Assembly (NCBI GenBank): GCA_023053545.1
Contig: JAKZAN010000006.1
Location: 12,407,412 to 12,471,411 of the forward strand
Direction of reading: 5' to 3'
Source of the DNA: Lepidurus packardi
Taxonomy: Eukaryota; Arthropoda; Branchiopoda; Notostraca; Triopsidae
DNA length: 64,000 nucleotides
The notes under the pieces are model-generated. The model saw nothing but the letters and a program-made list of their open reading frames with translations, did no database searches and had not been told where the DNA came from. This document shows positions 1,213 to 55,516 of the stretch, piece by piece. The translations under genes were made by a program, and so were the position numbers. Positions within the stretch are counted from its first letter, which is position 1; the number at the start of each line of letters is the position of its first letter.

Positions 1213-1217
1213 TAGGA

Positions 1218-1292
1218 TGACGTGAATTTCTTATAAAGTATGGAAATAAAATGAGGCCTGCGTTGTGTGTTGAGGTTTGGGGTAAGGGCCTT
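1218..1292 (-). repeat. BEL LTR, 3'-terminal 75 bases only
   Basis: These bases match 15905-15979, the distal end of the complete LTR, in the same orientation. A 13-bp piece (1276-1288) is repeated at 1291-1303 as filler before the inverted arm starts. This supplies the 3' integration end of the provirus. Confidence 0.85.
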
Positions 1293-1310
1293 TGGGGTAA
1301 GGGTCATTCT

Positions 1311-1330
1311 GTTTTGGTGCCGTGACCAGG
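1311..1330 (+). other. Primer-binding site region of BEL arm 1
   Basis: TTTTGGTGCCGTGACC directly follows the LTR end in the intact arm (15905 boundary), where a tRNA primer site is expected. The TGG-type start fits; I cannot assign the tRNA. The mirror copy lies at 15881-15900. Confidence 0.5.
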
Positions 1331-3352
1331 ATGGCCGAGTCCCTCTCAAATCTTAAACGAGCTCGTGGCGCATCACGCGGCCACATTACTCGAACGAAGA
1401 ATCTTGGCGAGAATCTTTTGCAAAATATCTTGACTCCGGTAGAGATGGTAAGCCAACTTTCCCGTATAATTGCGATCCTACAAGACAAGAAAGTGGTAGT
1501 CGACGGAGTAACGGACCAAATCAAAGCCGCCTTAACGCTTGACACCGACTTAGATTAAGAGTATAGACAAGACGAAGTCTGGCAATCCGAGTTTGATGAA
1601 ATATTCATGAGATTTGAGTCCAAGCTCGCCTTCTACAGAACTTTACCTGCCACAGCCTCACAACCCTCGTCTTCTCCCATGGCTACTTTAGCTAACCCTT
1701 TGATTACTATTACCCCTGTTCCATCCTCGTCCTATCCCAATGCTTCCGTTGCCACCACCCCCTTTTTGCGAAAATCGAAACTTCCTACCCTGCAATTACG
1801 TAGATTCGATGGAGATGTACTGGAATGGCAGTCCTTTTGGGACCAATTTCGCGGTGAGATCCACGACGACCCCACCCTCTCCCCCGCAGTTAAATTCAAC
1901 TATCTTCTTTCCGTATTGGAAAAGGATGCCAGAGAAGCGATCACCGGTCTTCAACCGTCCGATGTCCACTATATGGAAGCTATCGCCATCCTACAGGAGA
2001 ACTACGGGAGCAAGGAGAAGCTGGTTCAAGCACGCTTTAAGGCACTTCAAGAGCTTAAGCGTTCGGACGGGTCACTGGAATCGTTGAAAAACTTCCTTCT
2101 TCGTATGAACGTTCATCTTAGAGGATTGGATGCGCTAGGAAAATCACCCGATTCCTACGGGGAGTATATGGTTGGTGTACTTTTGGCAAAGTTACCTACC
2201 GAAACCCGCCGTAATCTGTCCCGATTCCAAAACAACTCAACGTGGACCATTGCAACACTACGTGTGGCTCTTAAACAAGAGGTAGACTTGCTGGAAGCAA
2301 GTGAGGATGAGAAAGTGACTTCTACTCCACCAGTTGAGACTCCCAAAGCGAAGCCTACCCCAAGAGGAAGCCCATCAGCGGCTGCTCTCATTATGAACAC
2401 TCGAAACGACGCTAGGCCCATCAAGTGCGCCTTTTGCGCTGATTCCCACAAGGCGGTAGAATGTACCCGCTATGCGACCCCCGAACAGCGTAGAGTTGTG
2501 GTAAGAGAAAAGAATCTCTGTTTTATTTGTCTGTCTAGTTCGAATCACACGACAGCCGTGAACTGCAGATCCAAGAATCGATGTCGCATTTGTCAGCAAA
2601 AGCATCACACCAGCCTCCATGGCTCCGCCCCCACCTCCTCTGTGATTGAAGCAAGTACCTCACCAACTCCGGCTCTCACTTTAGGCATTCCACCGAGTTC
2701 CAGCCTCGTTTTCCTCAAAACTGCGGTTGCTCCCGTTATGGTAAACGGACGGACTACCGTGGCGAATATTCTCTTCGATGAGGGAGCTCAAACATCGTTC
2801 GCTACTTCCGATTTAATGGCTAGACTGGACCATATCCCTAATCAATTTGTGAGAACAACTTTAAATGTTTTTGGATCCAGTAGTCGACGTTCTCTTCCAG
2901 TTACCCAACTTACCATCGTGACGTTACAACATGAGCAATACAACATTGGTGTCACCGTTGTTCCACGCATTGTGGTTCCTCTAGATCTTCGGACACCCGT
3001 AAATCTCCGGGATTTGCCCCACCTACGAAACCTAACGTTTGCTCACCCAAATGTGGGCCAGGAGGTATTCCCTGTCGATCTACTAATTGGAGCAGATTTC
3101 GCCTGGTATTTCCTGCAGGACGTCACTATTCGTGGACCAGGACCAACAGCTGTCAAAAGTTCTCTCGGGTACCTTCTCTCGGGTCCACTCCAATCCTTTT
3201 CCTCGGTTGCCCCTTCGTGTACCTATTACTTGTTGGCAACGCATCTATTCCTGACGAAAAACGTCTCGAGGATTTTTGGCGATTGGAATCAGTTGGCATT
3301 GGAGCAGAAGACACGGAAAGCGATTTCTTGCAGGAATATCAAGATTCTATGA
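1322..3352 (+). pseudogene. BEL/Pao gag-protease, arm 1
   Basis: This is the Gag and aspartyl-protease region of a BEL/Pao element. One reading frame runs from about 1322 but has an in-frame TAA at 1556-1558. It then shows the Pao-type gag core (LPTLQLRRFDGDVLEWQSFW), cysteine-histidine nucleic-acid-binding motifs (CAFCADSHKAVEC; CFICLSSSNHTTAVNC; CRICQQKHH) and a protease-like segment (ILFDEGAQTSF). The usual D-S/T-G triad reads D-E-G here. The frame is lost after about 3230, where pol continues in another frame. The same stop and frame break occur in arm 2, so they predate the duplication. Confidence 0.85.
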
Positions 3353-5870
3353 TTGAACGCCAGGACGACGGAAAGTACGTTGCAAGACTACCCTGGAAGT
3401 CGAACCATCCGCCCCTACCGAGCAACTTGGGAATCACGACCATCCGCACGGAAAACCTGATGCGAAAACTGAGAAGAGACCGATCTCTGTTACGGAAATA
3501 CGACAGCGTAATTCAAGATTACTTACTCAAGGGATTTATAGAGAAAATTACCCTAAACTCAGTGTCTTCCGGCGTGCATTACCTACCTCATCGGGCCGTA
3601 GTTAAGGATTCTGCTACCACGCCACTTCGTATTGTTTACGACTGTTCTTGCAAAGCCGATCCGGACAGTCCCAGTCTAAACGACTGCTTAGAACCCGGTC
3701 CTGCTCTGCAAAATGATCTTTGCGGCATTCTGTTACGTTTCAGGAGCCATCGCTTTGTCGTCACCAGCGATATAGAAAAGGCATTCCTAAATATCTCTCT
3801 TCACCCTAAAGACAGAGATTTTTTACGGTTCTTGTGGCCTCAAGACCCTCAAAACCCAGACTCTCCATTGGACGTGTACCGTTTTAAGGTCCTCATGTTT
3901 GGGGTTACCAGTTCGCCGTTCATTTTGCTTGCCGTCCTACTTAAACATCTTTCTTCGTATGACTGCCCACGAGCATCCTTATTAAAAGGGGATATATATA
4001 TGGACAATCTCCTCACAGGAACGGATACCGAACAAGAACTCCTGCAGTTATACCAAGACGCTCAAAGGATGCTTGCGGAAGCCCGCTTGAACTTGCGCGA
4101 CTGGAGTTCCAACAGTCCCCTCCTCCAGCAATTTACTGGTGTAGACCCTTCCTCAGCCATGGTCAAGACTCTTGGTCTTCTTTGGGCCCCAAAAGAAGAT
4201 TTTTTATCCTACCCCCCTCTTAACTTGTCTATGGATGTTGCAACTATGACGAAGAGAATTCTTTTGAAGCAGATCAGTAGCATCTTCGACCCCTTAGGAT
4301 ACCTTAGTCCTGTTGTTCTTTCAGCTAAGTTGCTTATGCAACGGGTCTGGAAACTAGAACTTGATTGGGATGACCCGCTCCCTGAGTCAGTTAAATCCCC
4401 TTGGCTGAAATTTGTCAAAGACTTTGTGGGATTAGAATTACTTCAAATTCCACGTTTTTACTTTTCTTCTTTTAAATCGTCGGTTAGTTTGCACGTTTTC
4501 GCGGACGCAAGCCCGCTTGCGTACGGAGCTGTTGCCTATTTAGTCACGGCAAGCTCCTCTTCGTTCGTCATTTCGAAATCCCGGGTAGCACCTCTTAAGT
4601 CTTTGACCCTCCCCCATTTGGAACTCTTAGCTCTGAATCTGGCGTGCCGTTTGGCTCACTTCGTTCTCCAAAGTCTTCACTTCGAAGACATTCCAGCCGT
4701 TTACCTTTCTTTGGACCGACTCCCGCATTGCGCTCCATTGGTCTACCGGCACTCGACCCCTTCGTCGTGCACTTGAAAATCGGGCTAATGAGATCCAGAA
4801 GTTAATGGTCAAACTGCAAGCACGATTACTCCATTGCTCTTCCAGCGAGAACCCTGCCGATTTACTCACACGAGGTGTATCCTTGGGAAGACTACAACAT
4901 TCTGTGCTTTGGAACCATGGTCCTGATTTGCTGAAGCAACCTTCGCTTAACGAAACCCACCCTGAACAGAGTCATGTTGTATCCCTTTTAGTCCAAAACA
5001 GATCTCTTACCCTCAGTGAGTCAGATACCCCGGATCCGGTCTTTCCCAACATTTTTTCTCGTTTTAGCTCATGGAGCAAAACGGTAAATGTATTATCTTG
5101 GGTTCTCCGATTTGTTCGTAACCTGAAATGTAAGGATAGACAAACTGGCCCCCTTCTACCTAAAGAGCTAGAAACAGCAGAGAACTGGCTCTTTCGTTTG
5201 GCTCAAGCTTTGGATTTCCCTGAAGTAGTTAAAGAATTAAAGGAGAAACGAGAGACTTCCAAGCCGAAACTATCAATTATTCGTCAACTCGGTCTCTTTC
5301 TCGATGACAACTCAGTTCTTCGCTGTAAAGGCCGTATACAGAATGCCTCTTTAACATTTTCGGCGAGGCATCCGGTCTTGTTGTCTAAGAAGTCACCTTT
5401 GACTCCCCTCTTAATACACCACTACCATCGTCAATCTTTACACTCTGGTGCAAATGCCCTTTTGACGCTTATTCGTCAGCGCTTTTGGGTCCCTGCTGCT
5501 CTCCCACTGATTAAGCAGATCATTCGTAAATGTATGATCTGCAAACGTCTCAATGGTTTTCCTTACAATGTGACCGAAGCCGCGCCTTTACCCTATTCCC
5601 GTGTATCTCCTGGGTTTCCATTTGAAGTCACCGGACTGGACTTTTTGGGTCCCATTTTTGCCGTAAAGTCTCCTGAGACTGTTGATGTAAAATTTTATGT
5701 CTGTCTATTTACATGTGCTAAAATCCGTGCAATTCATTTGGGACTCGTTAACGACCTGAGTGATGTCGCCTTTCTTCACGCTCTTCAGAGATTTATTAAC
5801 AGAAGAGGCTGTCCCCTTGAACTTCTTTCTGATAATGCTACGAACCTTGAAGCCGCATCCAACGTTCTTA
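3217..5870 (+). pseudogene. BEL/Pao pol: RT, RNase H and integrase N-terminus, arm 1
   Basis: The frame opens with the BEL pre-RT motif LEDFWRLESVGI, then RT (RIVYDCSCKAD; TSDIEKAFLNISL; FRFLWP; FKVLMFGVTSSPF). The catalytic box reads YMDNLLTG instead of the usual Y-x-D-D, a D-to-N change shared by arm 2. RNase H-like sequence (HVFADASPLAYGAV) follows; a frame change near 4713 is followed by ENPADLLTRG and the integrase zinc region and core (VTGLDFLGP; LLSDNATN). The coding sequence is interrupted at TTAA 5868-5871 and resumes at 12018. It could not give an active polymerase as read. Confidence 0.87.
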
Positions 5871-5883
5871 AGGCCACGGTGTA

Positions 5884-6644
5884 GTGTAACTTCTTATGGC
5901 GCTATAGCATGGCAAACTTAAGTTACACCTTTCTCAGTCCCTTTGCAATATAATCAAATTGTATTGTGACAGTAATGTATGGTATTTCTTTTTCAATTTA
6001 ACTGGGTTGCTAGTTTTTAATATTTGGCTTCCATAAATTTTTTACGTAGAAGAACATGTTAAAATATTGATATAGAAAAAAAAACCGAACCCAGATTTTT
6101 CGAGTTTATTATTATGATATTTTTAAAGAAAGAATTTTTCAATTATCTCTTACTGTTTACTTGGAAAGGTGTACTAAAGTTTATGAAATTCGGATGAGAA
6201 ATTGTGCTGCCACTCAGAAAATAACGACCAGGCAGGAAACTGCATAGCTTGTGCAGAACTCAAGAATGAGGATGAAAAGGAGATACCGTAAAAGTAGGGG
6301 GAAGGATATGACAAGTCACTAATTGGGTTTGCTCGAGCCTAAAGTAACCCAAGGGCACAAATACCTTGTGGCATTTTACCCTTTTCTTTTTGTCTCCGAA
6401 TGGCTTTTCTCGAACATTTTCCCCCTGTTAGCAAAGAGGGGAAAGAGGTCAAGAAAGCGAACCAAGTTGGGTCTAGAAAAGGTGAAAAGATTTCCGGCTT
6501 GGTTACGAAAGCTAAGACTATAAGTATAGCTGCAGATAGCTGCTTGGCGTGTAAATTTGGAAAATTTACAGTACAAATACATACATTTATTAAAGAAACT
6601 TACCTTACGTGTTGGTTTGTAATAATGAAAACTAGCTTTACTTA
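5884..6644. other. Non-coding 3' side of the Kolobok-like element
   Basis: This AT-rich stretch lies between the left inverted end and the tandem repeat. Only short ORFs occur on both strands and I recognise none of them. Confidence 0.5.
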
Positions 6645-6905
6645 GGCATCAGTTCTAATTTGGTCATCACCGGATGCAAGTAACTCTTAGCTCAATGGTA
6701 TATTTAAAAGATACCATTTCACGGTGGCATTTTATATTTGACATCTCACGAGAGGCTCAAACTATCCTTTACTCTCAGGCATTAGTTAGTATTGTCATCA
6801 CCGGATGCAAAAAACTCTTGGCTCAATGGTATATTTAAAAGATACCATTTCACGGTGGCATTTTATATTTGATAGCAACCTCTCGGATGTTTTTCATTGG
6901 TGAAC
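6645..6905. repeat. 131-bp subterminal tandem repeat, two units
   Basis: The block starting GTCATCACCGGATGCAA occurs at 6663 and 6794. Each unit contains the perfect hairpin GGTATATTTAAAAGATACC and a CTCACGAGAGG motif. Its position inside the end of the DNA transposon suggests subterminal transposase-binding sites; that role is inferred. Confidence 0.7.
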
Positions 6906-7043
6906 TCAATGATTTCATGAAGGAAATCATCTCACGAGAGGCTTTGACGTGCATTTCATATAAGCTTTCAATAAGTTGACCTCACGGTACATTTATAATT
7001 TTAATCCATGTGCATGTTTGACCAACATAATATGTGCATCAGA

Positions 7044-8742
7044 TCACTGATCAAGTGGTCTCTTTGCGGCTTTTTTACCGTTTGTTTGGTCTGCGACCTT
7101 TTTAGCCTCTATAGCGGCCAAAACGTAAGGCGGCTCCCGCGGAGCCAACTTTTGTCCCATCCGCGGGTCTGCAAGTTCAAGCAACATACAGTCCATGAAA
7201 AAGGCTCTGAGTTTTGGAAGCATTGTGTCTTCCCAAAAAACCCTGTCAAACACAATCCGCTCAACTTGCAAACTGTTCTTTGTCCATGCAACAAAATCAC
7301 ACCACGCTCTTCCGGTCACGGCAAGCTGTCCTATAACTTGGTAGTAGTGATTGTGCGTTCTCTTCAATCTCAGTTTGTCACCATCAATTAACTCTAGAAA
7401 GCAGTCCTTCGGTTTTGATTTTACAAATTCAATGAAGGAAGACGCTGTCTCTGCCTTTTGGGGACACTTTATCTCGATAAGTCCTTCGTCACCTACAAGG
7501 CCGTCGGGAGATGCTCCCAGGTAACCTAGCTCAGGATGCACCCAAAACCCTGATGGGACTACAGTCACACAGTTCTTTATTTCGTAGTCTTTCCTGGCAT
7601 TTGGCTCATTGGCCTGTCCGTAACGAGTACCTTCTGTGCTAATGTTATTAGGACTTAGTATTGCTTGCAATGTATTTTGACGCAAAGTTGTATCTCTGAG
7701 CTTACACACTTTGCCAAAGTGAGAAGCGGTCAGTCTACTCGCCCTTGCATCAAACCAATCAGAAGAATCAGCCTGCTCTCTAGTTTTCTCTTCAAGGGCC
7801 ACAATCTGCTCCCTGCTAAGCTGCTGTTGAGCAACAATCAGTTTGCACCTGTCACGTAAGATCTCCTCTGGCAAATCTGGCTTTCCATAATGGCAATCAG
7901 GTCCTGCGAAAGCTTCGCGACTCCGAGTCAAAGCTTGTCGTGGAGAAGCAATAGCATTATTTTCCCGTGACTTCTCTAACCGATTTCTGAACGAAAGAAT
8001 ATCGTCGTGACAATTCTTGGCAAAATTTTCTGTAGCAATGCTACAGGAACCATATTTTTTCAAAATAGCAGCCTGAAAACCTCGTCCATGGTGATATTCT
8101 AGAACAGCACCATAACATCGGTAATTATAAGATCCCCTTTGCGAGCGGAGAAATTGCTTGCCACCAGAGAATTTAGCCACCATGGACATAAACCGCTCTG
8201 CGAGGTTAGTCATAACTTCGGTAAGCAAACCTGCAGCTTTGCTCCTACAGCCCAACAAGATCTCCATTACTTCAGTGTACAAAGCAATGTGTACATTCTG
8301 TTTCAATTTCTGACCCACTGACTTACAACCCTTTCCACCATCGCTGGCCGCAGTGCAAAAAGTGTGGTCATTCAAAAGATAATGTCTGGGACCATTGCTC
8401 AGAAATGAACGAAGTTGATCAACATTTCCCTTCAATCTAGCGTTACGATTGATTGCACCTCGTGCTGCACCGCCAAGTTTACGTATCAAAAGAGGGGTCA
8501 AAATTTTCTTATTGGCAGGGGTTTTGCCCTGAAGTTTATACAGAGCTTTCGGGAAATTTTTCATTACATGATTTGCACACTCAAGCTTGCGGACGGTTTT
8601 CTGAGTGCGAGGAGTATTAGCGAGGATAGCATTATGGGTCGAAGAGTCCCCGTCACCAATAAACGTTCGATAGCGCAAGCCGTGCTTGTCTTCAGCATCT
8701 CTAAAACCATCTACAATAATGGAGCTTTCCATTGCTGTAGAC
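7044..8742 (-). CDS. Transposase (second half of Mutator-like DDE) fused to YqaJ-type nuclease
   Basis: The first part shows the Mutator/Kolobok-like catalytic segment FIGDGDSSTH, the ECANHVMKNFPKALYKL helix region and a conserved NLAERFMSMVAKF stretch. The second part (roughly residues 330-540 of this piece) has lambda-exonuclease/YqaJ motifs: SRLTASHFGKVCK, EPNARKDYE, GASPDGLVGDEGLIEIKCP and YYQVIGQLAVTG. Those D, E-x-K and Q residues are the usual metal and nuclease residues. The C-terminus is lysine-rich. The reading frame is open for the whole 562 residues. The N-terminal half is at 11218-11873, separated by a hAT insertion whose excision would restore the frame. Expected role: transposition, with a 5'-3' exonuclease aid of unknown purpose. 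Confidence 0.8.
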
Positions 8743-11209
8743 CAGGGGTCGGCAACCTTTTACCCAACGCGGGCCAGAACAAATGCATGGAGGGTAGTGG
8801 CGGGCCGGATTAATCCTTTGAACTACTAATTCAAAATTCAGCCGTAATAAAATTTTGGAGGATCAGGAAAGATGTTTATTTAATCCGAAATGTGCTTTAT
8901 TGGAAGAATTGTCTGTATTTTCAATTTAAAGAGACAATAAGTTCAGTGCATTGCATTACTCTTATAATGGGTTCGATATTCGTTTTAACATTGATTTGAC
9001 TTAGTTGAACTAGAATTAATGTGACGCTTGGTGCTGTTTGGCAGCTGAAAGTTTCTTCATATCACACGACATGCCAGACGATGCCAAGTGCAGTACGTCG
9101 CCCAAATGCTCGTCAGTAATTCGATTTCTCAAATGATTTTTTGTGTGTTTCATTTTTGAAAACAATTGCTCACACACGTAAGTGCTACCGACATTGATGC
9201 CATCCTTTTGGCGTAATTAGTTAAGTTCGGGTGACTCCCGGACTCAAGAAGATACTTCTTGTAGAAATCTGTTAGTGGTACACCACCTGCATTGAATTTT
9301 GATTTCAACACATCATTACATTGCAACTCAATGAGCTCCATCTGAATATTATCCGGAACGTTATTTACGTCGACATCAAAAGGTGTACTAAACATCCTGA
9401 AATCGACTACGTGTGATCGGAGATCAGCAAAACGTGAGGCAAACTCGCTTTTTAGAGTGCGGATCACTGCCACAAATTCGCAGCTTTCTTTTGGGTTTCT
9501 TTCCGCGAGTGTAGGAAAATGCGAATAATTAGACTTCTCAAGCTGGTTTTCCCACAATCGAAGCTTTGTTTCGAATGCAGTAACGTGGCTCCACATTTCA
9601 TGGATCAGTTGATTTTTTCCTTGAAGCTGCAAATTCAGGCTGTTCAAATGCCTCGTTAGGTCGACTAGAAACGCGAGGCTTGAAAGCCACGTTTGATCCC
9701 GAAATTCTTTGGCGTTCATGTTTTTGCTCTCAAGAAAGCCAGCTATTTCTTCACGGAGGGAATACACTCTTCCTAGCATAGCACCACGACTAAGCCAACG
9801 AACATCACAGTAATAAAGTAAGTCTCCATATTCATTCTCCGATTCGGACAAAAGTGTTCGAAATTGACGATGATTTAAACCCCGAGACAAGATTACATTG
9901 ACCGTTTTTACAGCCACGTCCATTACTTCATTCAGATTCGATGTTTTGGCACACAGTGCTTCCTGGTGTATGATGCAGTGTATCTTTGTGACATCGTGAA
10001 CGATTCCGAGGCCTTCCATATGTTTCCTAAGTAAGGCCACGACGCCTTTATTCTGTCCGACCATAGCCGGAGCTCCATCGGTTGTTACGGACACAAGCTT
10101 TGTCAAGTCCAAATCGAGATTCGAAAAACACTGAAGCAATGCTGCCAGAATGTCCTCTCCTTTGGTAGTACCCTTCATAGGTACCAGTTGTAGGAATTCC
10201 TCGACAATTTCGAAGGTTTCAGTAACTCCGCGTATAAATACTGCAAGCTGTGCAGTATCAGTGGCATCAGTGCTCTCATCAAGGGCTATTGAGAAGAACT
10301 GAAATTTCTTGCAACTCTTTCTTAAATTGCTTTTCAGGTCAGCTGATATTTCTTCAATTCGCCTCGTAACGGTTCTCGCCGAAAGGCTTACATTTGAAAA
10401 AAGATCCTTTTTCTCCGGACATACTATGTTTACAACGGCCATCAAACACTTTTTTACAAAATCACTATCTGTGAAGGGTTTCATTTCCTCTGCTATAAGT
10501 TTTGAGACAGCAAAACTCGCAAGTGTGTTTTTCTCAGATTCTGAGTTCTGATTCTTAAATACCAAGCTTTGCTTTTGCAGACTACGACTGAGTTTAGCAA
10601 TTTCGTCTTTTCTTAGTTGACCGGTAAATTCAGCGTGGTTAGAATGATTAGCCTCGTAGTGTCGCTTGATGTTGAACTCTTTATGAACGGCAACACTTGC
10701 CTGGCAAATGAGACATATAGGTTTTCCGAAATGCTGGACAAAGAAGTATTGATCAGTCCAGCACTCTTGGAAATTGCGACATTCGGTATCAACTTTTCGA
10801 CGCTTTGCTGACATTTTCCCAGAAAGTGGAAGAATTTGCTACAGTATCACAGAAAGTTGGCTACTTTACTATCACGAAAGTGAAGCACAACGAGGCGAAT
10901 CCACTATGAATAGCCGCAGAACGCGAACGTGGCAGCGTCAAGCTAAAAGTGGAACTGGAACAGCGAAATCAGTTCAAAATGCTAATAGTAGGCTTCACGG
11001 GCTACACTGTGCTGAGCAGACTAGACTAGGGTTGGATTCAGATGTTTTGCGAAAATCTTTTTAAAGGAACGACGTAGTCAAAACTTATATATTAGTTTAT
11101 AAGGTACCGCGGGCCGGATGCATGTAATATTTCACCCGTGGGCCGCGGGCCGGATAAAATGGGCTGGCGGGCCGGATTCAGCACGCGGGCCGTAGGTTGC
11201 CGACCGCTG
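8743..11209 (-). mobile_element. hAT transposon nested in the transposase-YqaJ gene
   Basis: The inverted ends are CAGGGGTCGGCAACC at 8743 and CAGCGGTCGGCAACC at 11209 on the minus strand. They are flanked by the 8-bp duplication CTGTAGAC (8735-8742, 11210-11217). GCGGGCCGGAT-type subterminal repeats cluster at both ends (8794-8812; 11107-11180). The length is 2467 bp. The ends and the 8-bp duplication are diagnostic of hAT. Confidence 0.93.
9012..10814 (-). pseudogene. hAT transposase (ZBED/GTF2IRD2-like) with C-terminal frameshift
   Basis: The protein starts MSAKRRKVDTECRNF. It has a BED-type zinc finger (CLICQASVAVHKEFNIKRHYEANH), the FSIALDESTDATDTAQLAVF catalytic segment, SVTTDGAPAMVG, IHCIIHQEALCAK and VRWLSRGAMLGR, all typical of GTF2IRD2/ZBED-like hAT transposases. 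The open frame ends near 9150. The hATC dimerisation segment (YVCEQLFSKMKHTKNHLRNR) is present downstream in another frame down to about 9012. A single-base change around 9190 would explain this. The rest of the frame is open, so the inactivation looks recent. Confidence 0.88.
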
Positions 11210-11217
11210 CTGTAGAC

Positions 11218-11873
11218 GGACCGTCCCAGTTTTTGAAACATTCGTGGGGGCGAGGATCCACTTGTTTGTTCTTAGCTTGTTGACAAATGGAACAATATTT
11301 GTTACGAACTCCTACATGCAATATTTTCTTGGTCCGCGCACCAATGATTACGCCCACACCTGACTTGGCTGTGTACCTGGTGCCGTGGCTCCTTTGAGAC
11401 CACCCACCATCGCCAATTACGGTTATGTACGGCGTGTTGTCTTCGTCGATTTGTTCAGCCCGTTCAGCCGATTCACGTTCTTCCTTCCCTGCATTTTCTA
11501 TTTCTAGCTTTGCCTCTTTCTCCCATATTTTCCCAACTTTACGTTCCTGTTCAATAAATGAGTTGCGGTTCATTGAAGGAACGCCAACGGTTGCCATGAA
11601 TTCTTCTAAGTGGTTATGGGCTGCACCAATTTGCATAATTCCCATTGCAATTTTTGTGTTGACGGACAGAGCCTGAACTTTATCTGACCTCAAGCGTGCA
11701 GCATGCGGCGAAATGTTCTTTTGGGTAGGCCTTACATGCGCATATGGAGAAACCTGGTCAGTTGTTATAAAAATTTTTTTTGTTAAATTGGTATTCCCTC
11801 CCATTCTCAAGCGAACATAGGGAGGAAGTTCCTTAGCATAAGCTGACCTTTTCCCTTTACCCCATACTTTACC
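11218..11873 (-). CDS. Transposase-YqaJ fusion, N-terminal half
   Basis: This open frame carries the first catalytic aspartate region, YITVIGDGGWSQRSHG, followed by a cysteine-histidine cluster (YCSICQQAKNKQVDPRPHEC). It then runs into the hAT site and continues in frame at 8734. The in-frame region reaches upstream past the first ATG (11810) to a TAG at 11874-11876, which is preceded by pyrimidine-poor sequence. An upstream exon is possible but I see no clear start. The 11178-11217 tail of the open frame is hAT and duplicated sequence. Confidence 0.72.
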
Positions 11874-12017
11874 CTAATTATTGTGTGCAGACCTCTAGTG
11901 CGAGAAATTAGTCATAGGTGTATATTTATTTGTAGCATTCTCAGGATATAGGGGTCTATGCCAGCGACATCTTTTGACGGAAAATAGTCAACTACTTACA
12001 CCACACCGTGGCCTTAA

Positions 12018-12783
12018 GAATTTGCAGGCATCCCAAGTCGTTACCTCATATCTCTCCCAAAAGAAGATCACCTGGAGACATATCCCTAAACGTGCTCCTT
12101 GGTACGGAGGCTTTTGGGAGCGACTCGTCGGATTGACAAAGTCCCTGCTGAAAAGAACCTTAGGAAGAGCGCGCATCGAAGTCCAGGACTTAGTCACCTT
12201 GCTGACAGCTATAGAAGCTCAATTAAATAATCGGCCTCTTACCCAGAATTCTAATAATATTCAAGACGATCAACCTGTAACCCCTTCTCATTTTTTACAT
12301 GGAAGAGTACTTCCTATTTTACATTGTGATTTGTCTTCCTTCGAAAAATCAGAACTGAGCGACCTCTTAAAGGCCCTTCATTGTCAACAATCCCTCCTGC
12401 AAATTTTCTGGCATCGTTGGTCCCGAGAATACCTAACGGCTCTCCGGTCTGCTCATTGCAATTTTTTATCCGGAAAACCGATAGAGATTAAAGAAGGGGA
12501 TCTTGTCTTTATTCACGACGAAGGAAAAAGGTTATTCTGGAAAGTCGGCCGTGTTACTAAACTCTGTATGGGTTTGGATGGAGTTGTCCGTTCCGCCATA
12601 CTTCGTACTGCAAACGGTACTACGAATCGCCCTTTATCCCGTTTGTACCCCATGGAAATCACCTTAGATTGTAAATCCAACCCTGTCACTGAGGACTCCC
12701 TACCACTTCGAGCAAGATCCTCGCGCCAAGCTGCCAAGAGAGCTAATTTGCGGATCCAGCAGATTGTTTCTGAAGAACAGTAA
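12018..12783 (+). pseudogene. BEL/Pao integrase C-terminus, arm 1
   Basis: It resumes the integrase frame lost at 5870. The catalytic-core end reads ITWRHIPKRAPWYGGFWERLV (WRHIPxRAPxxGGxWE is typical of BEL/Pao). It is followed by EAQLNNRPL and the DUF5641-like tail with EGDLVFIHDEGKRLFWKVGRV. It ends at a TAA at 12781-12783, just before the polypurine tract. This part has only one copy because arm 2 stops in RT. Confidence 0.87.
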
Positions 12784-12799
12784 TCTGCATCTTTGGCCG

Positions 12800-12848
12800 G
12801 CGGGAGGATGTTGTGAATTTGACTGCTTTCTTGTATCATTTGCTTTTC
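12800..12848 (+). repeat. BEL polypurine tract and first 40 bases of LTR, then inversion junction
   Basis: GGCGGGAGGA precedes TGTTGTGAATTTGAC, the LTR start also seen at 16211. After 40 LTR bases the sequence switches, at a two-base overlap (TC), into inverted RT sequence matching 4364 downward. This is the internal rearrangement point. Confidence 0.88.
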
Positions 12849-13994
12849 AAGTTCTAGTTTCCAGACCCGTTGCATAAGCAACTTAGCTGAAAGAACAACA
12901 GGACTAAGGTATCCTAAGGGGTCGAAGATGCTACTGATCTGCTTCAAAAGAATTCTCTTCGTCATAGTTGCAACATCCATAGACAAGTTAAGAGGGGGGT
13001 AGGATAAAAAATCTTCTTTTGGGGCCCAAAGAAGACCAAGAGTCTTGACCATGGCTGAGGAAGGGTCTACACCAGTAAATTGCTGGAGGAGGGGACTGTT
13101 GGAACTCCAGTCGCGCAAGTTCAAGCGGGCTTCCGCAAGCATCCTTTGAGCGTCTTGGTATAACTGCAGGAGTTCTTGTTCGGTATCCGTTCCTGTGAGG
13201 AGATTGTCCATATATATATCCCCTTTTAATAAGGATGCTCGTGGGCAGTCATACGAAGAAAGATGTTTAAGTAGGACGGCAAGCAAAATGAACGGCGAAC
13301 TGGTAACCCCAAACATGAGGACCTTAAAACGGTACACGTCCAATGGAGAGTCTGGGTTTTGAGGGTCTTGAGGCCACAAGAACCGTAAAAAATCTCTGTC
13401 TTTAGGGTGAAGAGAGATATTTAGGAATGCCTTTTCTATATCGCTGGTGACGACAAAGCGATGGCTCCTGAAACGTAACAGAATGCCGCAAAGATCATTT
13501 TGCAGAGCAGGACCGGGTTCTAAGCAGTCGTTTAGACTGGGACTGTCCGGATCGGCTTTGCAAGAACAGTCGTAAACAATACGAAGTGGCGTGGTAGCAG
13601 AATCCTTAACTACGGCCCGATGAGGTAGGTAATGCACGCCGGAAGACACTGAGTTTAGGGTAATTTTCTCTATAAATCCCTTGAGTAAGTAATCTTGAAT
13701 TACGCTGTCGTATTTCCGTAACAGAGATCGGTCTCTTCTCAGTTTTCGCATCAGGTTTTCCGTGCGGATGGTCGTGATTCCCAAGTTGCTCGGTAGGGGC
13801 GGATGGTTCGACTTCCAGGGTAGTCTTGCAACGTACTTTCCGTCGTCCTGGCGTTCAATCATAGAATCTTGATATTCCTGCAAGAAATCGCTTTCCGTGT
13901 CTTCTGCTCCAATGCCAACTGATTCCAATCGCCAAAAATCCTCGAGACGTTTTTCGTCAGGAATAGATGCGTTGCCAACAAGTAATAGGTACAC
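12847..13994 (-). pseudogene. BEL/Pao RT, arm 2 (truncated)
   Basis: It is the same RT as at 3217-4364, starting LEDFWRLESVGI and including YMDNLLTG, and it stops at LMQRVWKLEL. The open frame continues to 12513 only by reading through the junction into LTR and the antisense of integrase; that tail is not protein sequence of the element. There is no RNase H or integrase in this arm. Confidence 0.87.
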
Positions 13995-15889
13995 GAAGGG
14001 GCAACCGAGGAAAAGGATTGGAGTGGACCCGAGAGAAGGTACCCGAGAGAACTTTTGACAGCTGTTGGTCCTGGTCCACGAATAGTGACGTCCTGCAGGA
14101 AATACCAGGCGAAATCTGCTCCAATTAGTAGATCGACAGGGAATACCTCCTGGCCCACATTTGGGTGAGCAAACGTTAGGTTTCGTAGGTGGGGCAAATC
14201 CCGGAGATTTACGGGTGTCCGAAGATCTAGAGGAACCACAATGCGTGGAACAACGGTGACACCAATGTTGTATTGCTCATGTTGTAACGTCACGATGGTA
14301 AGTTGGGTAACTGGAAGAGAACGTCGACTACTGGATCCAAAAACATTTAAAGTTGTTCTCACAAATTGATTAGGGATATGGTCCAGTCTAGCCATTAAAT
14401 CGGAAGTAGCGAACGATGTTTGAGCTCCCTCATCGAAGAGAATATTCGCCACGGTAGTCCGTCCGTTTACCATAACGGGAGCAACCGCAGTTTTGAGGAA
14501 AACGAGGCTGGAACTCGGTGGAATGCCTAAAGTGAGAGCCGGAGTTGGTGAGGTACTTGCTTCAATCACAGAGGAGGTGGGGGCGGAGCCATGGAGGCTG
14601 GTGTGATGCTTTTGCTGACAAATGCGACATCGATTCTTGGATCTGCAGTTCACGGCTGTCGTGTGATTCGAACTAGACAGACAAATAAAACAGAGATTCT
14701 TTTCTCTTACCACAACTCTACGCTGTTCGGGGGTCGCATAGCGGGTACATTCTACCGCCTTGTGGGAATCAGCGCAAAAGGCGCACTTGATGGGCCTAGC
14801 GTCGTTTCGAGTGTTCATAATGAGAGCAGCCGCTGATGGGCTTCCTCTTGGGGTAGGCTTCGCTTTGGGAGTCTCAACTGGTGGAGTAGAAGTCACTTTC
14901 TCATCCTCACTTACTTCCAGCAAGTCTACCTCTTGTTTAAGAGCCACACGTAGTGTTGCAATGGTCCACGTTGAGTTGTTTTGGAATCGGGACAGATTAC
15001 GGCGGGTTTCGGTAGGTAACTTTGCCAAAAGTACACCAACCATATACTCCCCGTAGGAATCGGGTGATTTTCCTAGCGCATCCAATCCTCTAAGATGAAC
15101 GTTCATACGAAGAAGGAAGTTTTTCAACGATTCCAGTGACCCGTCCGAACGCTTAAGCTCTTGAAGTGCCTTAAAGCGTGCTTGAACCAGCTTCTCCTTG
15201 CTCCCGTAGTTCTCCTGTAGGATGGCGATAGCTTCCATATAGTGGACATCGGACGGTTGAAGACCGGTGATCGCTTCTCTGGCATCCTTTTCCAATACGG
15301 AAAGAAGATAGTTGAATTTAACTGCGGGGGAGAGGGTGGGGTCGTCGTGGATCTCACCGCGAAATTGGTCCCAAAAGGACTGCCATTCCAGTACATCTCC
15401 ATCGAATCTACGTAATTGCAGGGTAGGAAGTTTCGATTTTCGCAAAAAGGGGGTGGTGGCAACGGAAGCATTGGGATAGGACGAGGATGGAACAGGGGTA
15501 ATAGTAATCAAAGGGTTAGCTAAAGTAGCCATGGGAGAAGACGAGGGTTGTGAGGCTGTGGCAGGTAAAGTTCTGTAGAAGGCGAGCTTGGACTCAAATC
15601 TCATGAATATTTCATCAAACTCGGATTGCCAGACTTCGTCTTGTCTATACTCTTAATCTAAGTCGGTGTCAAGCGTTAAGGCGGCTTTGATTTGGTCCGT
15701 TACTCCGTCGACTACCACTTTCTTGTCTTGTAGGATCGCAATTATACGGGAAAGTTGGCTTACCATCTCTACCGGAGTCAAGATATTTTGCAAAAGATTC
15801 TCGCCAAGATTCTTCGTTCGAGTAATGTGGCCGCGTGATGCGCCACGAGCTCGTTTAAGATTTGAGAGGGACTCGGCCATCCTGGTCAC
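13859..15889 (-). pseudogene. BEL/Pao gag-protease, arm 2
   Basis: It is a mirror copy of 1322-3352 with the same in-frame stop (15653-15655) and the same frame break before RT. One residue differs from arm 1. The shared lesions show that the parent element was already defective. Confidence 0.87.
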
Positions 15890-15904
15890 GGCACCAAAAC
15901 AGAA

Positions 15905-16211
15905 TGACGTGAATTTCTTATAAAGTATGGAAATAAAATGAGGCCTGCGTTGTGTGTTGAGGTTTGGGGTAAGGGCCTTGTCCAACTTGATACAATCACT
16001 AGAAACAGAGGTCTTGTAAAATCGTCAGAATTTATTAAAAGGAAACGTTGCTACAAACTATAGCTAGTCACATGGGAATCGGCGAGAGTGCGAGAACAGG
16101 AAAAACGGCAGGGCTACCAACCCCTTGCACCCTTGGTCCAGAAAGATGCAAGAGGGTACAAAATGGGGCGGGAAAAGCAAATGATACAAGAAAGCAGTCA
16201 AATTCACAACA
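15905..16211 (-). repeat. BEL LTR, complete (307 bp)
   Basis: It runs TGTTGTG...CACGTCA and contains AATAAA near 16030 (minus strand) as a possible polyadenylation signal. It is followed by the primer-site region TTTTGGTGCCGTGACC. It is the only full-length LTR of the provirus and forms its 5' end. Confidence 0.88.
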
Positions 16212-16216
16212 TAGGA

Positions 16217-18261: not shown

Positions 18262-18267
18262 TTACTT

Positions 18268-18335
18268 TATTTGTTAATGTAGAGAGCATAAGAGGTTTGG
18301 ATTCTCTAGGCGTTAGTGCAATTCTATCACAAATA
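18268..18335 (+). pseudogene. trnQ: trnQ-like mitochondrial tRNA copy
   Basis: A 7-bp acceptor stem TATTTGT/ACAAATA and a position between trnM and trnI support trnQ. The anticodon loop reads TTTGGAT, so the TTG anticodon is displaced or damaged. Confidence 0.65.
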
Positions 18336-18396
18336 ATTGAGGTAATACATTACATTATCTGCCCTATCAAGGTAAGCCTTTTAATCAGGCTCAATT
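18335..18396 (-). pseudogene. trnI: trnI mitochondrial tRNA copy
   Basis: The minus strand gives acceptor AATTGAG/CTCAATT and a CCTTGATAGGG anticodon arm with GAT for isoleucine. It lacks two bases near the 5' stem compared with the copy at 41092-41155. Confidence 0.8.
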
Positions 18397-18899
18397 TAAG
18401 TTAAAGATAGATTATTTAGATAAATAAATTTAATAGGATTATTGTATATAAAAACACATAAACATTACGTAGTTTGTTATTTTTTATGTTTTCATACTAT
18501 TACTAATACTATTTAAGTATTAGAAATAATTTTTTTAATAATAACATAATTTTTTTAATTTAAAAATTACGGGTTTAATAAAATGTAATTAATTTTTTAA
18601 GGTAATATTGGACATATATAAAATACTTAACATATAATATACTTATACAGGCATATTTACAACTTCTAGCACCCGAGCTTAATTAGTACATAAAAGAAAA
18701 TAGGAGAAATGAACCTTATTTTACAGGATGTAATGATTGAGGTTGTATCTCACCAATATAAATGTTTAATTGTATTTGAATGCGTCACATATGAAATGTA
18801 TTTTAGGCGTAGGGGGGGGAGAGATTACTCCTTTTTTCTTTTTTTTCTTTAATATTAAGCTATATTAAAGTTGGGATTAAATTATTAATACGTATCTTC
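18397..18899. pseudogene. Mitochondrial control region copy
   Basis: AT-rich sequence with T- and A-runs and a G-run at 18812 lies between trnI and rrnS. It contains about 150 bases that are missing from the second copy. Confidence 0.7.
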
Positions 18900-19730
18900 A
18901 TAAGTTTGATTCTGGCTTACACTTTGTTTAAATTTATAAACCAAATATTAATATATAATTACTTAATGTAACTAAAATGTAGTGGTTAATTTGATTATCA
19001 AGTTTTTGGAATCAGTTACAATTTTGAAGCCCAGCTTAACTCGTGCCAGCCGCCGCGGTTATACGATGGGGTTAAATAAAATTGTTTGGTGGAATTAAGT
19101 AGAATTTATTTTTAAATAATTTTTTGATTATATATTTGAGGGTGAAATCTTTAAATATATATTGTAATGATTATAAAAAAATACATTTTGTGAAATAAAG
19201 TTTTAGACGAGGATTAGATACCCTATTATTCTTTATTATTTTTTTATTTTTTGCGTGTCAACTTATTCTCTATTTTATTTTATTTTTATTCTATATTTTA
19301 CTCTTTATTATTGATGGCCTGGGTAGTAGTGATATTTTTAAAACCTAAAGAATTTGGCGCTACTTGATTCTTACTAGAGGAACCTGCTCTTGTATCGATA
19401 TTCCACGATTAAATTGACATATTTTTGTTTCCAGTTTGTATACCGCCGTTGTCAGATTATTTAAAAAAAAAATTGTATCTAATTAGCTTATTGCTGTGAC
19501 ATCAGGTCAAGGTGCAGCCGATAAATATGGGAGTAGTGGGTTACAATAAAGTTAAATTATTGCGGATTAATGGTTATATAATTTTCATTAAGGTGGATTT
19601 AGTAGTAAGTTAAAAATAAAATGTTTCTATGAAATAAGCTCTGAAGTGTGTACACATCGCCCGTCGCCCTCTCCTCTAAGGAGAGATAAGTCGTAGCATA
19701 GTAGATGTACTGGAAAGTGCCTCTAGATAG
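18900..19730 (+). pseudogene. rrnS: 12S rRNA (rrnS) mitochondrial copy
   Basis: Conserved signatures occur in order: TTTGATTCTGGCTTAC at the 5' end, GTGCCAGCCGCCGCGG at 19044, GGATTAGATACCC at 19211 and TACACATCGCCCGTCGCC at 19650. A T-rich segment at about 19222-19310 is absent from copy 2, so it is either a local insertion here or a deletion there. Confidence 0.92.
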
Positions 19731-19802
19731 TCAGATTGGAGCTAAATAAGTGAGCAATTCATTTACACTGAATTAATTTCGGTGCAATTCAGAATAGTTT
19801 GA
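19731..19802 (+). pseudogene. trnV: trnV mitochondrial tRNA copy
   Basis: The acceptor is TCAGATT/AGTTTGA with wobble pairs. The anticodon loop TTTACAC carries TAC for valine. It lies between rrnS and rrnL as expected. Confidence 0.7.
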
Positions 19803-20190
19803 AAATAAAATTATTGCTTATGATAATAAGAAAAAAATAATACTATAATAAGCAATATGCTTATAATAAGAAAAATAATTTTAATATCTTTTTATTAAGT
19901 AATTAGTAATGAAAGGTTGCGTTGGCGATAGTAAAATAGTACTGAAAAGGAAATAGGATATAATATGAAAATTTAATTTTAAAAAAAGCAGATATTAACA
20001 ATCGTACCTTGTGTATCAGGGGGCTATTAGTACATTTTATTTATTTGAAATTCCCAAAAAAAAGAAAGATCTAGTAGTTTATAAATATTTATGTACCATT
20101 ATAGTTTTTAATAAGCTGTTAGTAGTGAAATATTTTTTTTTATTATATTGGAGTATAGACATAAGCCTGTTGCCAAAGTTTATTATTAAA
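19803..20190 (+). pseudogene. rrnL: 16S rRNA (rrnL) 5' part, mitochondrial copy
   Basis: Signatures include AGTACTGAAAAGGAAA near 19938 and TACCTTGTGTATCAGGG near 20005, the conserved 5' part of arthropod 16S rRNA, followed by GAAAGATCTAGTAG. Homology fades near 20190, where the LINE 3' flank begins. Confidence 0.82.
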
Positions 20191-40964: not shown

Positions 40965-41028
40965 AATAAAGAGAGTAGCTCTATCAGTGGGGTATGAGCC
41001 CGTTAGTTTAACTTTAGCTTACTTTATT
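40965..41028 (-). pseudogene. trnM: trnM mitochondrial tRNA copy
   Basis: The acceptor is AATAAAG/CTTTATT. ACGGGCTCATACCCC carries the CAT anticodon for methionine. It is well preserved. Confidence 0.85.
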
Positions 41029-41092
41029 TGTTAATGTAGAGAGCATAAGAGGTATGGATTCTCTAGGCGTTGGTGCAATTCTATCACAAATA
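41025..41092 (+). pseudogene. trnQ: trnQ-like mitochondrial tRNA copy
   Basis: It has the same acceptor stem as 18268-18335, but the anticodon loop reads TATGGAT, so the copies have diverged here. Confidence 0.65.
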
Positions 41093-41155
41093 ATTGAGGT
41101 AATAAGTTACATTATCTACCCTATCAAGGTAATCCTTTTAATCAGGCACTCAATT
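41092..41155 (-). pseudogene. trnI: trnI mitochondrial tRNA copy
   Basis: The acceptor AATTGAG/CTCAATT is perfect over 7 bp and the GAT anticodon lies in CCTTGATAGGG. It looks like an intact fold. Confidence 0.85.
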
Positions 41156-42130
41156 TAAGTTAAAGATAGATTATTTAGATAAATAAATTTAATAGGATTA
41201 TTGTATATAAAAATACATAAACATTACGAAGTTTGTTATTTTTTTATGTTTTCATACTATTACTAATACTATTTAAGTATTATAAATATTTCTTTTAATA
41301 ATAAAATAATTTTTTTTAATTTAAAAATTACGGGTTTAAAATGTAGTGAATTTTTTAAGGTAATTTTAGACATATGTTTCATTTGATTTGAGTGCGTCAC
41401 ATATGAAATGTATTTTAGGAGTAGGGGGAGGGAGATTATTCCTTTTTTCTTTTTTCTCTTTAATATTAAGCTATATTAAAGTTAGAGTTAAATTATTAAT
41501 ACTTATCTCCATAAGTTTGATTCTGGCTTACACTTTGTTTAAATTAATAATCCAAATATTAATATATAATTACTTAATTTAACTGAAATGTAGTGGTTAA
41601 TTTCATTATCAAGTTTTTGGAATCAGTTACAATTTTTAAACCCGGCATAACTCGTGCCAGCCGCAGCGGTTATACAATGGGGTTAAACAAAATTGTTTGG
41701 TGGAATTAAGTATAATCTATTTTCAAATAATTATTTGATTACATATTTCGGGGTGAAATCTTTAAATATATATTGTAATGATTATAAAAAAAATTACATT
41801 TTGTGAAATAAAGTTTTAGACGATGATTAGATACCCTATTATTATTTATTAGTGATGGTCTGGGTAGTAGTGATATTTTTAAAACCTAAAGAATTTGGCA
41901 GTACTAGATTCTTACTAGAGGAACCTGCTCTTGTATCGATATTCCACGATTAAATTGAGATATTTTTGTTTTCAGTTTGTATACCGCCGTTGTCAGATTA
42001 TTTTTAAAAAATTGTCTCTAATTAGCTTATTGCTGTGACATCAGGTCACGGTGCAGCCGATAAATATGGGAGTAGTGGGTTACAATAAAGTTACACTGAA
42101 TTAATTTCTGTGCAATTCATAATAGTCTGA
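41156..42130 (+). pseudogene. rrnS: Control region, rrnS and trnV remnant, mitochondrial copy 2
   Basis: The control region (to about 41512) lacks roughly 150 bases present in copy 1. rrnS (41513-42092) keeps GTGCCAGCCGCAGCGG and GATTAGATACCC. It then joins directly to the trnV anticodon arm (TTACACTGAATTAATTTC), a deletion of about 210 bases that removes the rrnS 3' end. The sequence stops matching near 42170. Confidence 0.85.
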
Positions 42131-42679
42131 AAATAAAATTATTGCTTATTATAATAAGAAAAAAATAATACTCCAGGGAATAATACGCCAGGGAAAACAT
42201 CGAATGGACTTTGATCTAATTCTGCGACAACCAACCTCGTATCGATCTTATCGAAAACAAGTTGGGAATATTGGATTTGCTGGTTGAAGTATGCAAAGTA
42301 ACAAAATATTGGTTTCCATCTGGTAGTTATTTTTTATAGGATTTTTTTGTTAACAGTTATCTGAAGGATCGGATCGAGTGTGGGTTTGGAAACTCCAGGG
42401 CAAATGCGGAACTTTTTCCCACCTTAGCAAGCCACGCTTCTCGAATACGGCATTTATTATCACCCATTTTGCGGATAAAGTCGAGCATGAGTGCGAATGA
42501 TTTATGGAAAAGAACCGCGATACTGCCATGGAAAAACAAGTCGACATCCTTCGCCATCGCAAAGTATTTAAAAGAAAGAAAACACACACAAAAATCCTGA
42601 TTTTTGGTGTGAATTTTATTTGTGGAATCCATTAGTGTCTGACGACAGCCAAGTGCAACGTGCAACCAGTAGTGGGGAC
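42131..42679. other. No recognised gene
   Basis: A minus-strand ORF (42357-42713) and a shorter one overlap here; I recognise no motif. The ORF runs into the LINE relic on its 5' side and may be read-through. Confidence 0.4.
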
Positions 42680-53246: not shown

Positions 53247-53723
53247 GCAAGTAACAGAAGTAACCATAAAGAATAGAAATACTTTCTTAGGAACTTTCCT
53301 TGAGTTCACGAGTAACCTCTCATAAACATGAAACCAAGAAAAAGAAAAATTATAATCTTACAAAATAAAAAGACTTGGCAAGCGTGACAAAGACAAAATG
53401 TAAGCAAAACAAAATGAAAATATATTGTAGCGTAGATTGAAGTTACGCAGAATAAAAACAGGGAGATTAGTTTAGTTCACAAGGCGCGTATCAAGAAAGG
53501 GAAAGTAACTTTTGGCTTTTGTTTTTGCAAATATCAAAGCTCGCGCGTTTCGCACAATTGCTCCCACCGTCAGTCCCATTCAACTCTGCGCTCTCAGCTC
53601 TTCTTACTGTCAACTGGTCCGTTGACCAGTTGAGCATGACGGAATCCCCGGTAGACGAGAAAATGCGAAGAACGCACGTCGCAGTTCAACTCCTTTCGTT
53701 CAACAACCAGTTGACAATAAAAG
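53247..53723. other. No recognised gene
   Basis: It contains GTCAACTGGTCCGTTGACCAGTTGA-type hairpins near 53610-53640, resembling the middle of the hAT MITE. ORFs are unfamiliar. Confidence 0.4.
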
Positions 53724-54829
53724 GGGACTAGCAGATTCACCACAGCCAAAACCTGTTTGTACTAATCCTGTAAACTCACCACAACTTTTCTCTAGTGACA
53801 ATTCCCCACAGGAAAATTCACCACAGTATCAGTATACTATGTCAGTATTCAATGATCATACTGTGGTGAATTTTCGTGTGGGGAATTGTCACTAGAGAAA
53901 AGTTGTGGTGAGTTTACAGGATTAGTACAAACAGGATTTGGCTGTGGAGCCATCTGTGGTGAATTTTCCTGTGGGGAATTGTCACTAGAGAAAAGTTGTG
54001 GTGAGTTTACAGGATTAGGTAAACACAGGTTTTGGCTGTGGTGAATCTTCTCTTACCCGTGACAATTCCCCACACGAAAATTCACCACAGTATGATCATT
54101 GAATACTGACATATACCCAAGTGACAATACCCAAGTGAAGATGAAAATTTTAACCACGTAATCATAATTAGTAATAAATTTGAATACAAACTACAACTTT
54201 TAAAATTTGTTTTCATGATTGCTCACGTTTAATAATAATTCATTTGAATACAAACTACAACTCATTTTGTGTTACAAACTACTACAACTCGTACAACTAC
54301 CTCTACAATTTGACTACAAACTACAATTCGTTTAAATTCGTTTAAACACTCGTTAAGCGAAACTGATTTTCCCATTTAAATCAGTGTAAAAAACGATAAT
54401 GCGTTCCCTGCGAAATATTTTTTAAAATGTTTATTCAAATAAAATTACAGGTACATGCTTATAAATCGTTAAAGACGTAACAACCTGGAAAAAAACATTG
54501 ATTGGAAAAAACAGGATTGCTCACGCAAAAAATAATAATACATTTGAATACAAACTACAACTCGTTTTCAGAAATAATAACACAGCATCGGGCGGGGCTA
54601 GCGTGGGGAGTGGAGGAAGGCTTTAAGGTGGGTTTCCCACTATGTCAGTATTCAATGATCATACTGTGGTGAATTTTCGTGTGGGGAATTGTCACTAGAG
54701 AAAAGTTGTGGTGAGTTTACAGGATTAGTACAAACAGGATTTGGCTGTGGTGAATCTTCTAGTCCCCTTTGTACTAATCCTGTAAACTCACCACAAGTTT
54801 TCTCTAGTGACAATTCCCCACACGAAAAT
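53724..54829. repeat. Foldback element F, copy 1
   Basis: The terminal motif GGGACTAG(A/C)AGATTCACCACAG occurs at 53724 and inverted at about 54752-54775. Inside are arrays of an 80-base unit (CTGTGGTGA, TGTGGGGAATTGTCACTAGAG, GTTGTGGTGAG, TTTACAGGATTAGT) in both orientations. They surround a 550-base middle (54100-54645) that recurs in copy 2. The extra array at 54775-54836 touches the Myb/SANT gene end. Confidence 0.75.
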
Positions 54830-55516
54830 TCACCACATATGGTCGTCCATATCATCAAACTCATCTTCAAAAACTGTACCTTAAGAGAATAAGATTTCAC
54901 TGAACAATTCACGAAAACTTACATGCGTTGCTCGTTGATGTTCCTGGCAAATTTCGTCTTTGTTCACTCGGATTCTGTTCCTCTTTTAGAGAGTCCTACC
55001 GGGTGAATGTTATGTCCCTCTCCTAACGAAGACATTTTCATAATTGAATTTCGATTACTATTATAATGATTAATTACCAATTATATCCTGAATTTCCTCT
55101 ATATACGGTGGAGTATTCAGTAGTCCGTCAGCTCCACTTCCGGTCTTCTCAGATTCTTTGACGTAAGTTTTGTACGCCTTCATTATATTTTGCCATTTTT
55201 GGTCGACTTTCAGTACAGGATTTTCTCCGAGGTAATACCCAGCCTCGGCCAGTGAATTTGATAGAATGTCCAGGTATGCTTTTTTCTGGTCTTGTTATCG
55301 CTCAAAGCTGACCAATGTTTCTTTACGAGACCTAATAAGGCAGTTAGCATTTGCGAAGACATTTTGTTATAAAAATTACTTCAAAATAACCGCGTCGCCT
55401 TATTGTCTAGCGCTTTACTCACGTTTCTTTCCTATCCATATTGGCTTCTTTTTAGAATTCTCGGTCAGGACCCAGTTTTCTTCAACTTCCACAATTTCGT
55501 ACTCGTAGCTTTCCAT
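54830..55516 (-). pseudogene. Myb/SANT-like DNA-binding protein gene, four inferred exons, frameshifted
   Basis: Exon 1 (55423-55516) starts MESYEYEIVEVEENW. Exon 2 (55078-55331) has the domain: LVKKHWSALSDNKTRKK, then in the next frame AYLDILSNSLAEAGYY, VDQKWQNIMKAYKTYVKE, KTGSGADG and YIEEIQDII. Exons 3 (54923-54982) and 4 (54830-54879) give a polar linker and the acidic end FEDEFDDMDDHMW. All junctions are GT-AG and phase-compatible, apart from one frame change in the six-A run at 55279-55284. Such proteins accompany PIF/Harbinger transposases. No transposase is visible here. Confidence 0.6.

Follow-up and report, generated by a model that had tools for sequence, protein, structure and literature searches.

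A BEL/Pao retrotransposon insertion in Lepidurus packardi with an inverted and partly duplicated interior

A 64,000-nucleotide stretch of the Lepidurus packardi genome (hereafter the window; GenBank assembly GCA_023053545.1, 108.6 Mb in 344 contigs; contig JAKZAN010000006.1, C5:12407412-12471411 in our contig numbering) carries at positions 1218-16211 a BEL/Pao long terminal repeat (LTR) retrotransposon that entered the genome as one insertion. Compared with an ordinary antisense copy, this block has a left LTR that is short by 192 bp, its whole interior is present once in inverted orientation, and part of the interior is present a second time. We think it probable that the arrangement arose through two strand switches during reverse transcription, with ordinary integration afterwards.

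An inverted interior within a single insertion

Comparison of the window with itself recovered one long inverted repeat, in which 1303-4364 pairs with 15908-12847 (3,062 bp, coordinate sum 17211) and the only mismatch is a C at 2298 against a T (in sense) at 14913; the next longest inverted match in the window was <230 bp. An initial annotation of this DNA had described the arrangement as a giant palindrome with these arms. The arms were recovered as claimed, but 8,482 bp separates them and the block is therefore not a full palindrome. Its outermost ends are the U3 end (right) and the U5 end (left) of a single antisense element, which bears out the earlier statement that both extremes are LTR ends, although the left LTR is reduced to a 75-bp stub. 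Between the outer ends lies an inverted sense run that starts 12 nt ahead of the tRNA-His primer site, ends 40 bp into the 3' LTR and is split by a 6.1-kb DNA transposon. As had also been stated, the middle holds no complete LTR, only LTR positions 1-40. Within the limits of the assembly, the structure is confirmed as real.

The block lies in a long interspersed nuclear element (LINE)-like element, for which a domain search found an endonuclease-type domain at 721-1149 on the minus strand. The right LINE flank had 43 genome matches, 30 of which were cut out as loci, one of them being the block's own. When the two flanks were fused with one TCCTA retained (601 bases), 7 LINE copies (L047-L053) matched this query over 597-600 of the 601 bases at 96.8-97.5% identity with the joint uninterrupted; additional partial LINE copies also cross the insertion site, some of them broken elsewhere. 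Because TAGGA stands on both sides of the block and LINE copies run uninterrupted through the site, the block represents a single insertion that duplicated 5 bp of its target. The inner joints of the block showed no target duplication.

These observations leave hardly any credence for two independent head-to-head insertions, for one element nested in the other or for autointegration. Inverted neighbours do occur in this genome, as opposite copies of another BEL family at C2:2717327-2734054 illustrate. That pair, however, is unlike the window's: its right copy has both 392-bp LTRs, its left copy is truncated, and 21 sites and 2 gaps distinguish the two over 4.6 kb, whereas the block has no inner LTR terminus, no inner target duplication and a single outer TAGGA around a site found empty elsewhere. 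The earlier exclusion of two independent insertions thus stands, on the single TAGGA, the 7 empty LINE copies, the lack of an inner target duplication and the single parent sequence of the arms (see below). Autointegration, offered at the same time as a possible route, is not supported, as no inner joint falls at an LTR terminus.

The inner joints lie at LTR positions 40, 233 and 304, plus one in pol. The joint at 12847/12848 was found at no other locus: a 120-bp query across it gave 33 genome matches, of which only the block itself spans the joint. The primer site, 12 nt from the breakpoint at 1303 and 8 nt from the LTR, reads TGGTGCCGTGACCAGGAT and is complementary to the 3'-terminal bases, CCA included, of this genome's tRNA-His(GTG). 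A tRNA-His pattern matched the genome at 8 places, exactly in 6 cases; ARAGORN identified both of the exact matches that were fetched as tRNA-His(GTG). An earlier, stricter tRNA pattern had found no place in the whole genome.

Both arms derive from one parent sequence

The LTR had 26 genome matches, 3 of them inside the block, and we identified 7 two-LTR copies of the family elsewhere in the genome, all 7 with a 5-bp duplication. Two of these (C16a and C16b) mirror each other inside a larger inverted repeat and were counted as one insertion, giving six independent insertions. Comparison over the 3,062 bp of the arms showed 8 substitutions and a 1-bp deletion that both arms carry and that none of the 7 other two-LTR copies has. 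Since these private variants are common to both arms, a single parent sequence, rather than two different family members, gave rise to them.

These variants also bear on an assembly or library artefact, whether from chimeric inverted molecules or from a misjoin at a repeat, which we regard as decidedly unlikely. Near-identical inverted arms are a recognised source of assembly misjoins, and the insertion is ~58 kb from the end of its contig. An artefact would nevertheless require two separate joints, each with its own sequence (a stutter at one, an LTR break at the other), and it would have to accommodate arms that carry private shared variants together with one difference, as well as outer ends and a target duplication that are exact.

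The private substitution load of the other copies ranged from 0 to 8, and the two LTRs of a copy were identical in five of the six independent insertions and differed at 2 positions in the sixth. If all 29 private substitutions of the six insertions had arisen after integration, 5.8 LTR-LTR differences would be expected against the 2 observed (P = 0.07 for 2 or fewer), a suggestive pointer only. We had at first used the mutation load of the arms as a clock, reading 8 shared private substitutions against 1 difference as a late duplication. This was dropped: because other copies combine loads of 0-8 with identical LTR pairs in five of six cases, the window's private variants need not be post-integration, and on this comparison its load counts neither for nor against a long prior life as an ordinary provirus. 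Synonymous and nonsynonymous private substitutions (3/5 in the window against 2/4, 4/4, 2/1, 3/4, 0/0 and 1/4 in the six other lineages) gave no signal, and dating by the LTR pair was of little use as the left LTR survives as 115 bp only.

A further copy of the family at C1:184450-187286 (L044) has a 3' LTR and no matched 5' part; its longest piece is ~98.4% identical and it shows a small rearrangement near the reverse transcriptase gene. At C4:719049-723710 (L010, L012, L014), three family LTRs in one orientation have identical flanking bases on either side and are probably local duplications of one solo LTR.

Origin of the rearrangement

With the anatomy, the single insertion, the single parent sequence and the breakpoint positions established, the course of two strand switches during reverse transcription can be proposed in some detail. 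The chain, read on the bottom strand, would begin plus-sense with the complete LTR, the primer site and gag and run into the reverse transcriptase gene. A first switch would then turn it minus-sense at LTR position 40, from where it would traverse the 3' end, pol and gag in reverse and go slightly beyond the primer site. Near the primer site the chain would stutter and close with a plus-sense stub, the last 75 bp of the LTR. The polymerase would presumably be the element's own reverse transcriptase, and the order of the switches is likewise our presumption. The product would have retained an intact end of each kind, U3 and U5, so that integrase could process both and insert the molecule with the usual 5-bp duplication. 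Second strand transfer of minus-strand DNA normally occurs just past the primer site.

All four breakpoints are inside the element and three of them are in LTRs, which make up 614 of the 5,963 bp of a copy (length of C16a; P = 0.004 if breakpoints were uniform, in a test chosen after the data had been seen). This placement, inside the element, in LTRs and near the primer site, leans toward an origin in reverse transcription. So does the comparison with the large inverted repeats on C16 and C2 described below, which overrun the ends of their elements, unlike the window's. The joints themselves show 2-bp homology and a slippage repeat, as expected for template switching by any polymerase.

Rearrangement of a normal antisense provirus after integration is possible, though we hold it to be rather unlikely. 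An inversion with widely staggered breaks, or a replication or repair polymerase that switched template in two steps, would have inverted the interior, duplicated 3.06 kb and removed 192 bp of the left LTR. Inversions with staggered breaks, leaving inverted duplications at their breakpoints, are known from Drosophila and have the same topology; those inversions are chromosomal, whereas the window's rearrangement lies wholly within one element. Such an event would account for the arms and would yield identical outer ends and an identical target duplication, and several further points weigh with it against strand switching in reverse transcription. Large, chromosomal-looking inverted repeats are present in this genome (on C16 around 463382 and on C2 around 2278162); the 1-bp deletion common to both arms breaks the pol frame and may have been acquired by a resident provirus ahead of the duplication; the LTR breakpoint test is post hoc and the LTR-LTR test reached only P = 0.07; and strand switching does not fully account for why the chain landed 75 nt from the U5 end. 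Against rearrangement after integration, the model offers no reason for breaks to favour LTRs or the neighbourhood of the primer site, although three of the four fall within LTRs and the primer site is 12 nt from one of the breakpoints; no breakpoint falls outside the element; and a stagger of 3 kb seems long in our judgement.

The initial annotation had concluded from the preserved ends and the single duplication that a strand-switched or autointegrated cDNA was integrated, and had not weighed rearrangement after integration. That argument cannot separate the two classes of event because both preserve the outer ends and the target duplication; strand switching is favoured by the LTR breakpoints and the proximity of the primer site rather than proven. 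A fuller scenario, in which the second of two switches took place at the second-strand-transfer step, the cDNA had two working ends and the resulting 3-kb hairpin-coding copy is able to silence its own family via small RNAs, strikes us as unlikely.

Inverted repeats elsewhere in the genome

We searched for further BEL copies with inverted halves by scoring 150 of 272 peptidase/reverse transcriptase candidates and 150 of 281 gag candidates, and reading these by eye for equal-score matches on opposite strands within 30 kb. Pairs of unequal score (for example, C6:2836507-2867283) and equal-score pairs >30 kb apart (C1:11754556/11797919 and C16:565249/613907) fall outside this search. The window's own pair was present in the gag list, and the gag and reverse transcriptase lists together added three pairs within 30 kb, none with the structure of the window's. 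One, around C2:2278162, is an inverted repeat larger than its element; another, C2:2719564/2731329, consists of two separate copies; and the third, C16 448561/477733, is part of a larger inverted repeat.

The C16 repeat (C16:435000-491763; L041-L043, L005, L006) is centred on 463382 and contains two mirror copies of the same BEL family as the window's, together with their flanks. Its outer flank of 9,999 bp has 13 mismatches (99.87% identity), its central 10 kb is without an inverted match, and it extends beyond the fetched ends. At C2:2268408-2287914 (L076, L077, L084, L085), arms of at least 9,361 bp with 5 mismatches and one gap (99.94%) stand either side of a 786-bp spacer and reach to within ~10 bases of the fetched limits; within each arm, direct repeats of 323 bp, which we read as LTRs, enclose a BEL-type element. 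Both repeats look chromosomal, as their arms take in whole elements and flanks. The oppositely oriented pair at C2:2717327-2734054 (L078-L083), which belongs to another BEL family and is 99.48% identical over 4.6 kb, was read as independent neighbours and not as a palindrome.

Three family matches in the same orientation were found at each of C72:107383-120080 and C83:83573-95505, spaced by 6,106 and 5,761 bases, respectively, with six more matches on C72 at other spacings. This suggests tandem arrays of BEL elements, perhaps with shared LTRs.

Relation to known systems

Composite LTR elements of Triticeae, rice and maize with one 5-bp target duplication around the whole have been described, and the passages concerned argue from it for template switching (Sabot and Schulman, 2007; PMC1950507). 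The window's block resembles these complexes in being a composite LTR element with a single flanking 5-bp duplication. As those passages present them, the plant complexes have two complete cores and a shared third, inner LTR, whereas the second part of the block is inverted and incomplete, there is no complete inner LTR, and the element is a BEL/Pao element of an animal. Defective HIV-1 proviruses share an inverted interior with the block: internal inversions are listed among their defects, at 1.3% (n = 1) for inversions alone and 1.3% (n = 1) for inversions with deletion in one account (PMC9278108; see also PMC9238239), and the relevant passages contain no inverted duplications of several kb. 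The inversions at aberrant HIV integrations in a further paper are, in its relevant passages, of host DNA and not of the provirus interior (PMC5041404). Among the titles and abstract openings that we covered, we found no case of a single target duplication enclosing an LTR retrotransposon that has an inverted half; most subscription papers lie outside that coverage, and this is not proof of absence. The block is an unusually clean case of a known kind of copying accident, not a new kind of element.

Its value is that it records an inverted retroelement insertion cleanly, like a fossil: both inner joints can be resolved to the base, and near relatives are present in the same genome. If it was made in reverse transcription, a cDNA with a scrambled interior can still integrate by way of two terminal LTR ends, even when one of these is a 75-bp stub. 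The general picture of how BEL/Pao elements work is unchanged. Being complete and directed into the inverted arms, the right LTR may allow a hairpin transcript; if it still initiates transcription, the RNA would contain a 3-kb hairpin. Slotkin is said to have described in 2005 how an inverted transposon duplication starts silencing, the case being Muk, a natural inverted duplication of a maize transposon. Muk and the block are both inverted duplications of mobile elements and both in principle hairpin-capable, although Muk derives from a DNA transposon. The block suggests a place to seek natural hairpin-RNA loci that could start the silencing of an LTR retrotransposon family.

Coding content, nested transposon and remaining features

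The features of the block and its target site are given in Table 1. Assignment to BEL/Pao, as proposed initially, was upheld by a Pao-type pol with peptidase and reverse transcriptase domains (Peptidase_A17, E = 2.6e-44; RVT_1, 1.1e-08) and a DUF1759 gag (6.9e-32), and the element also has a TG...CA LTR, a 5-bp target duplication and a tRNA primer site adjoining the 5' LTR. Integrase_H2C2 (1.1e-09) was found before the nested transposon and DUF5641 (3e-18) after it; the integrase catalytic core gave no match, the transposon splitting the core and the halves having been searched separately. Relatives of the gag were at most 47% identical among 80 matches (7999 candidates scored), and 10 of the 12 named ones were from bivalves.

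Table 1. Positions of features in the window
Feature	Position	Strand	Basis or remark
Target-site duplication TAGGA, left copy	1213..1217	.	Empty site in LINE copies
75-bp LTR stub, LTR positions 233-307 (U5 end)	1218..1292	-	LTR comparison
Stutter at joint of LTR stub and sense run; TTGGGGTAAGGG starts at 1277, second copy from 1292	1292..1302	.	Sequence reading
Left inverted arm: last 4 nt of LTR (1303-1306), 8-nt spacer, primer site, gag, start of pol	1303..4364	+	Self-comparison, copy comparison
Primer-binding site, 18 nt, mirrored in right arm	1315..1332	+	Complement of tRNA-His(GTG) 3' end with CCA
gag-like frame, DUF1759	1607..3352	+	Profile match; frame broken by 1-bp deletion at 3221, in both arms
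Reverse transcriptase and Pao peptidase domains (RVT_1, Peptidase_A17)	3217..4776	+	Domain search
pol with integrase zinc-binding domain, up to nested transposon	4805..5872	+	Domain search
Nested DNA transposon, Mutator-like/YqaJ frames split by zinc-finger frame	5873..12012	-	Target duplication CTTAAG at 5867-5872, 12013-12018
Remainder of pol (DUF5641) and purine-rich tract ahead of LTR	12013..12808	+	Domain search
First 40 bp of LTR (U3), sense; broken at inner joint, 2 bp shared	12809..12848	+	LTR comparison
Right inverted arm: pol start, gag, leader	12847..15908	-	Self-comparison, copy comparison
Complete 307-bp LTR, TG...CA, 16211->15905; 5' LTR of antisense element	15905..16211	-	LTR comparison
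Target-site duplication TAGGA, right copy	16212..16216	.	Empty site in LINE copies

The other BEL copies match the window up to 5872 and resume at 12013, with a 6-base overlap of CTTAAG in all seven, and the DNA transposon thus delimited starts and ends with GCCACGGTGT-type terminal repeats. The frame that splits its Mutator-like/YqaJ frames has a zinc finger (Spin-doc type) above the cut-off and a DUF4371 match below it; this frame is perhaps hAT-like. As it sits in the unduplicated part, the nested transposon gives no date for the palindrome; on the cDNA model, the Mutator-like transposon would have landed after the palindrome was formed.

Elsewhere in the window, a direct repeat in pieces (18262-19844 and 41019-42172) has 92-95% identity, and short direct and inverted repeats cluster at 53720-57092 in a satellite-like arrangement.

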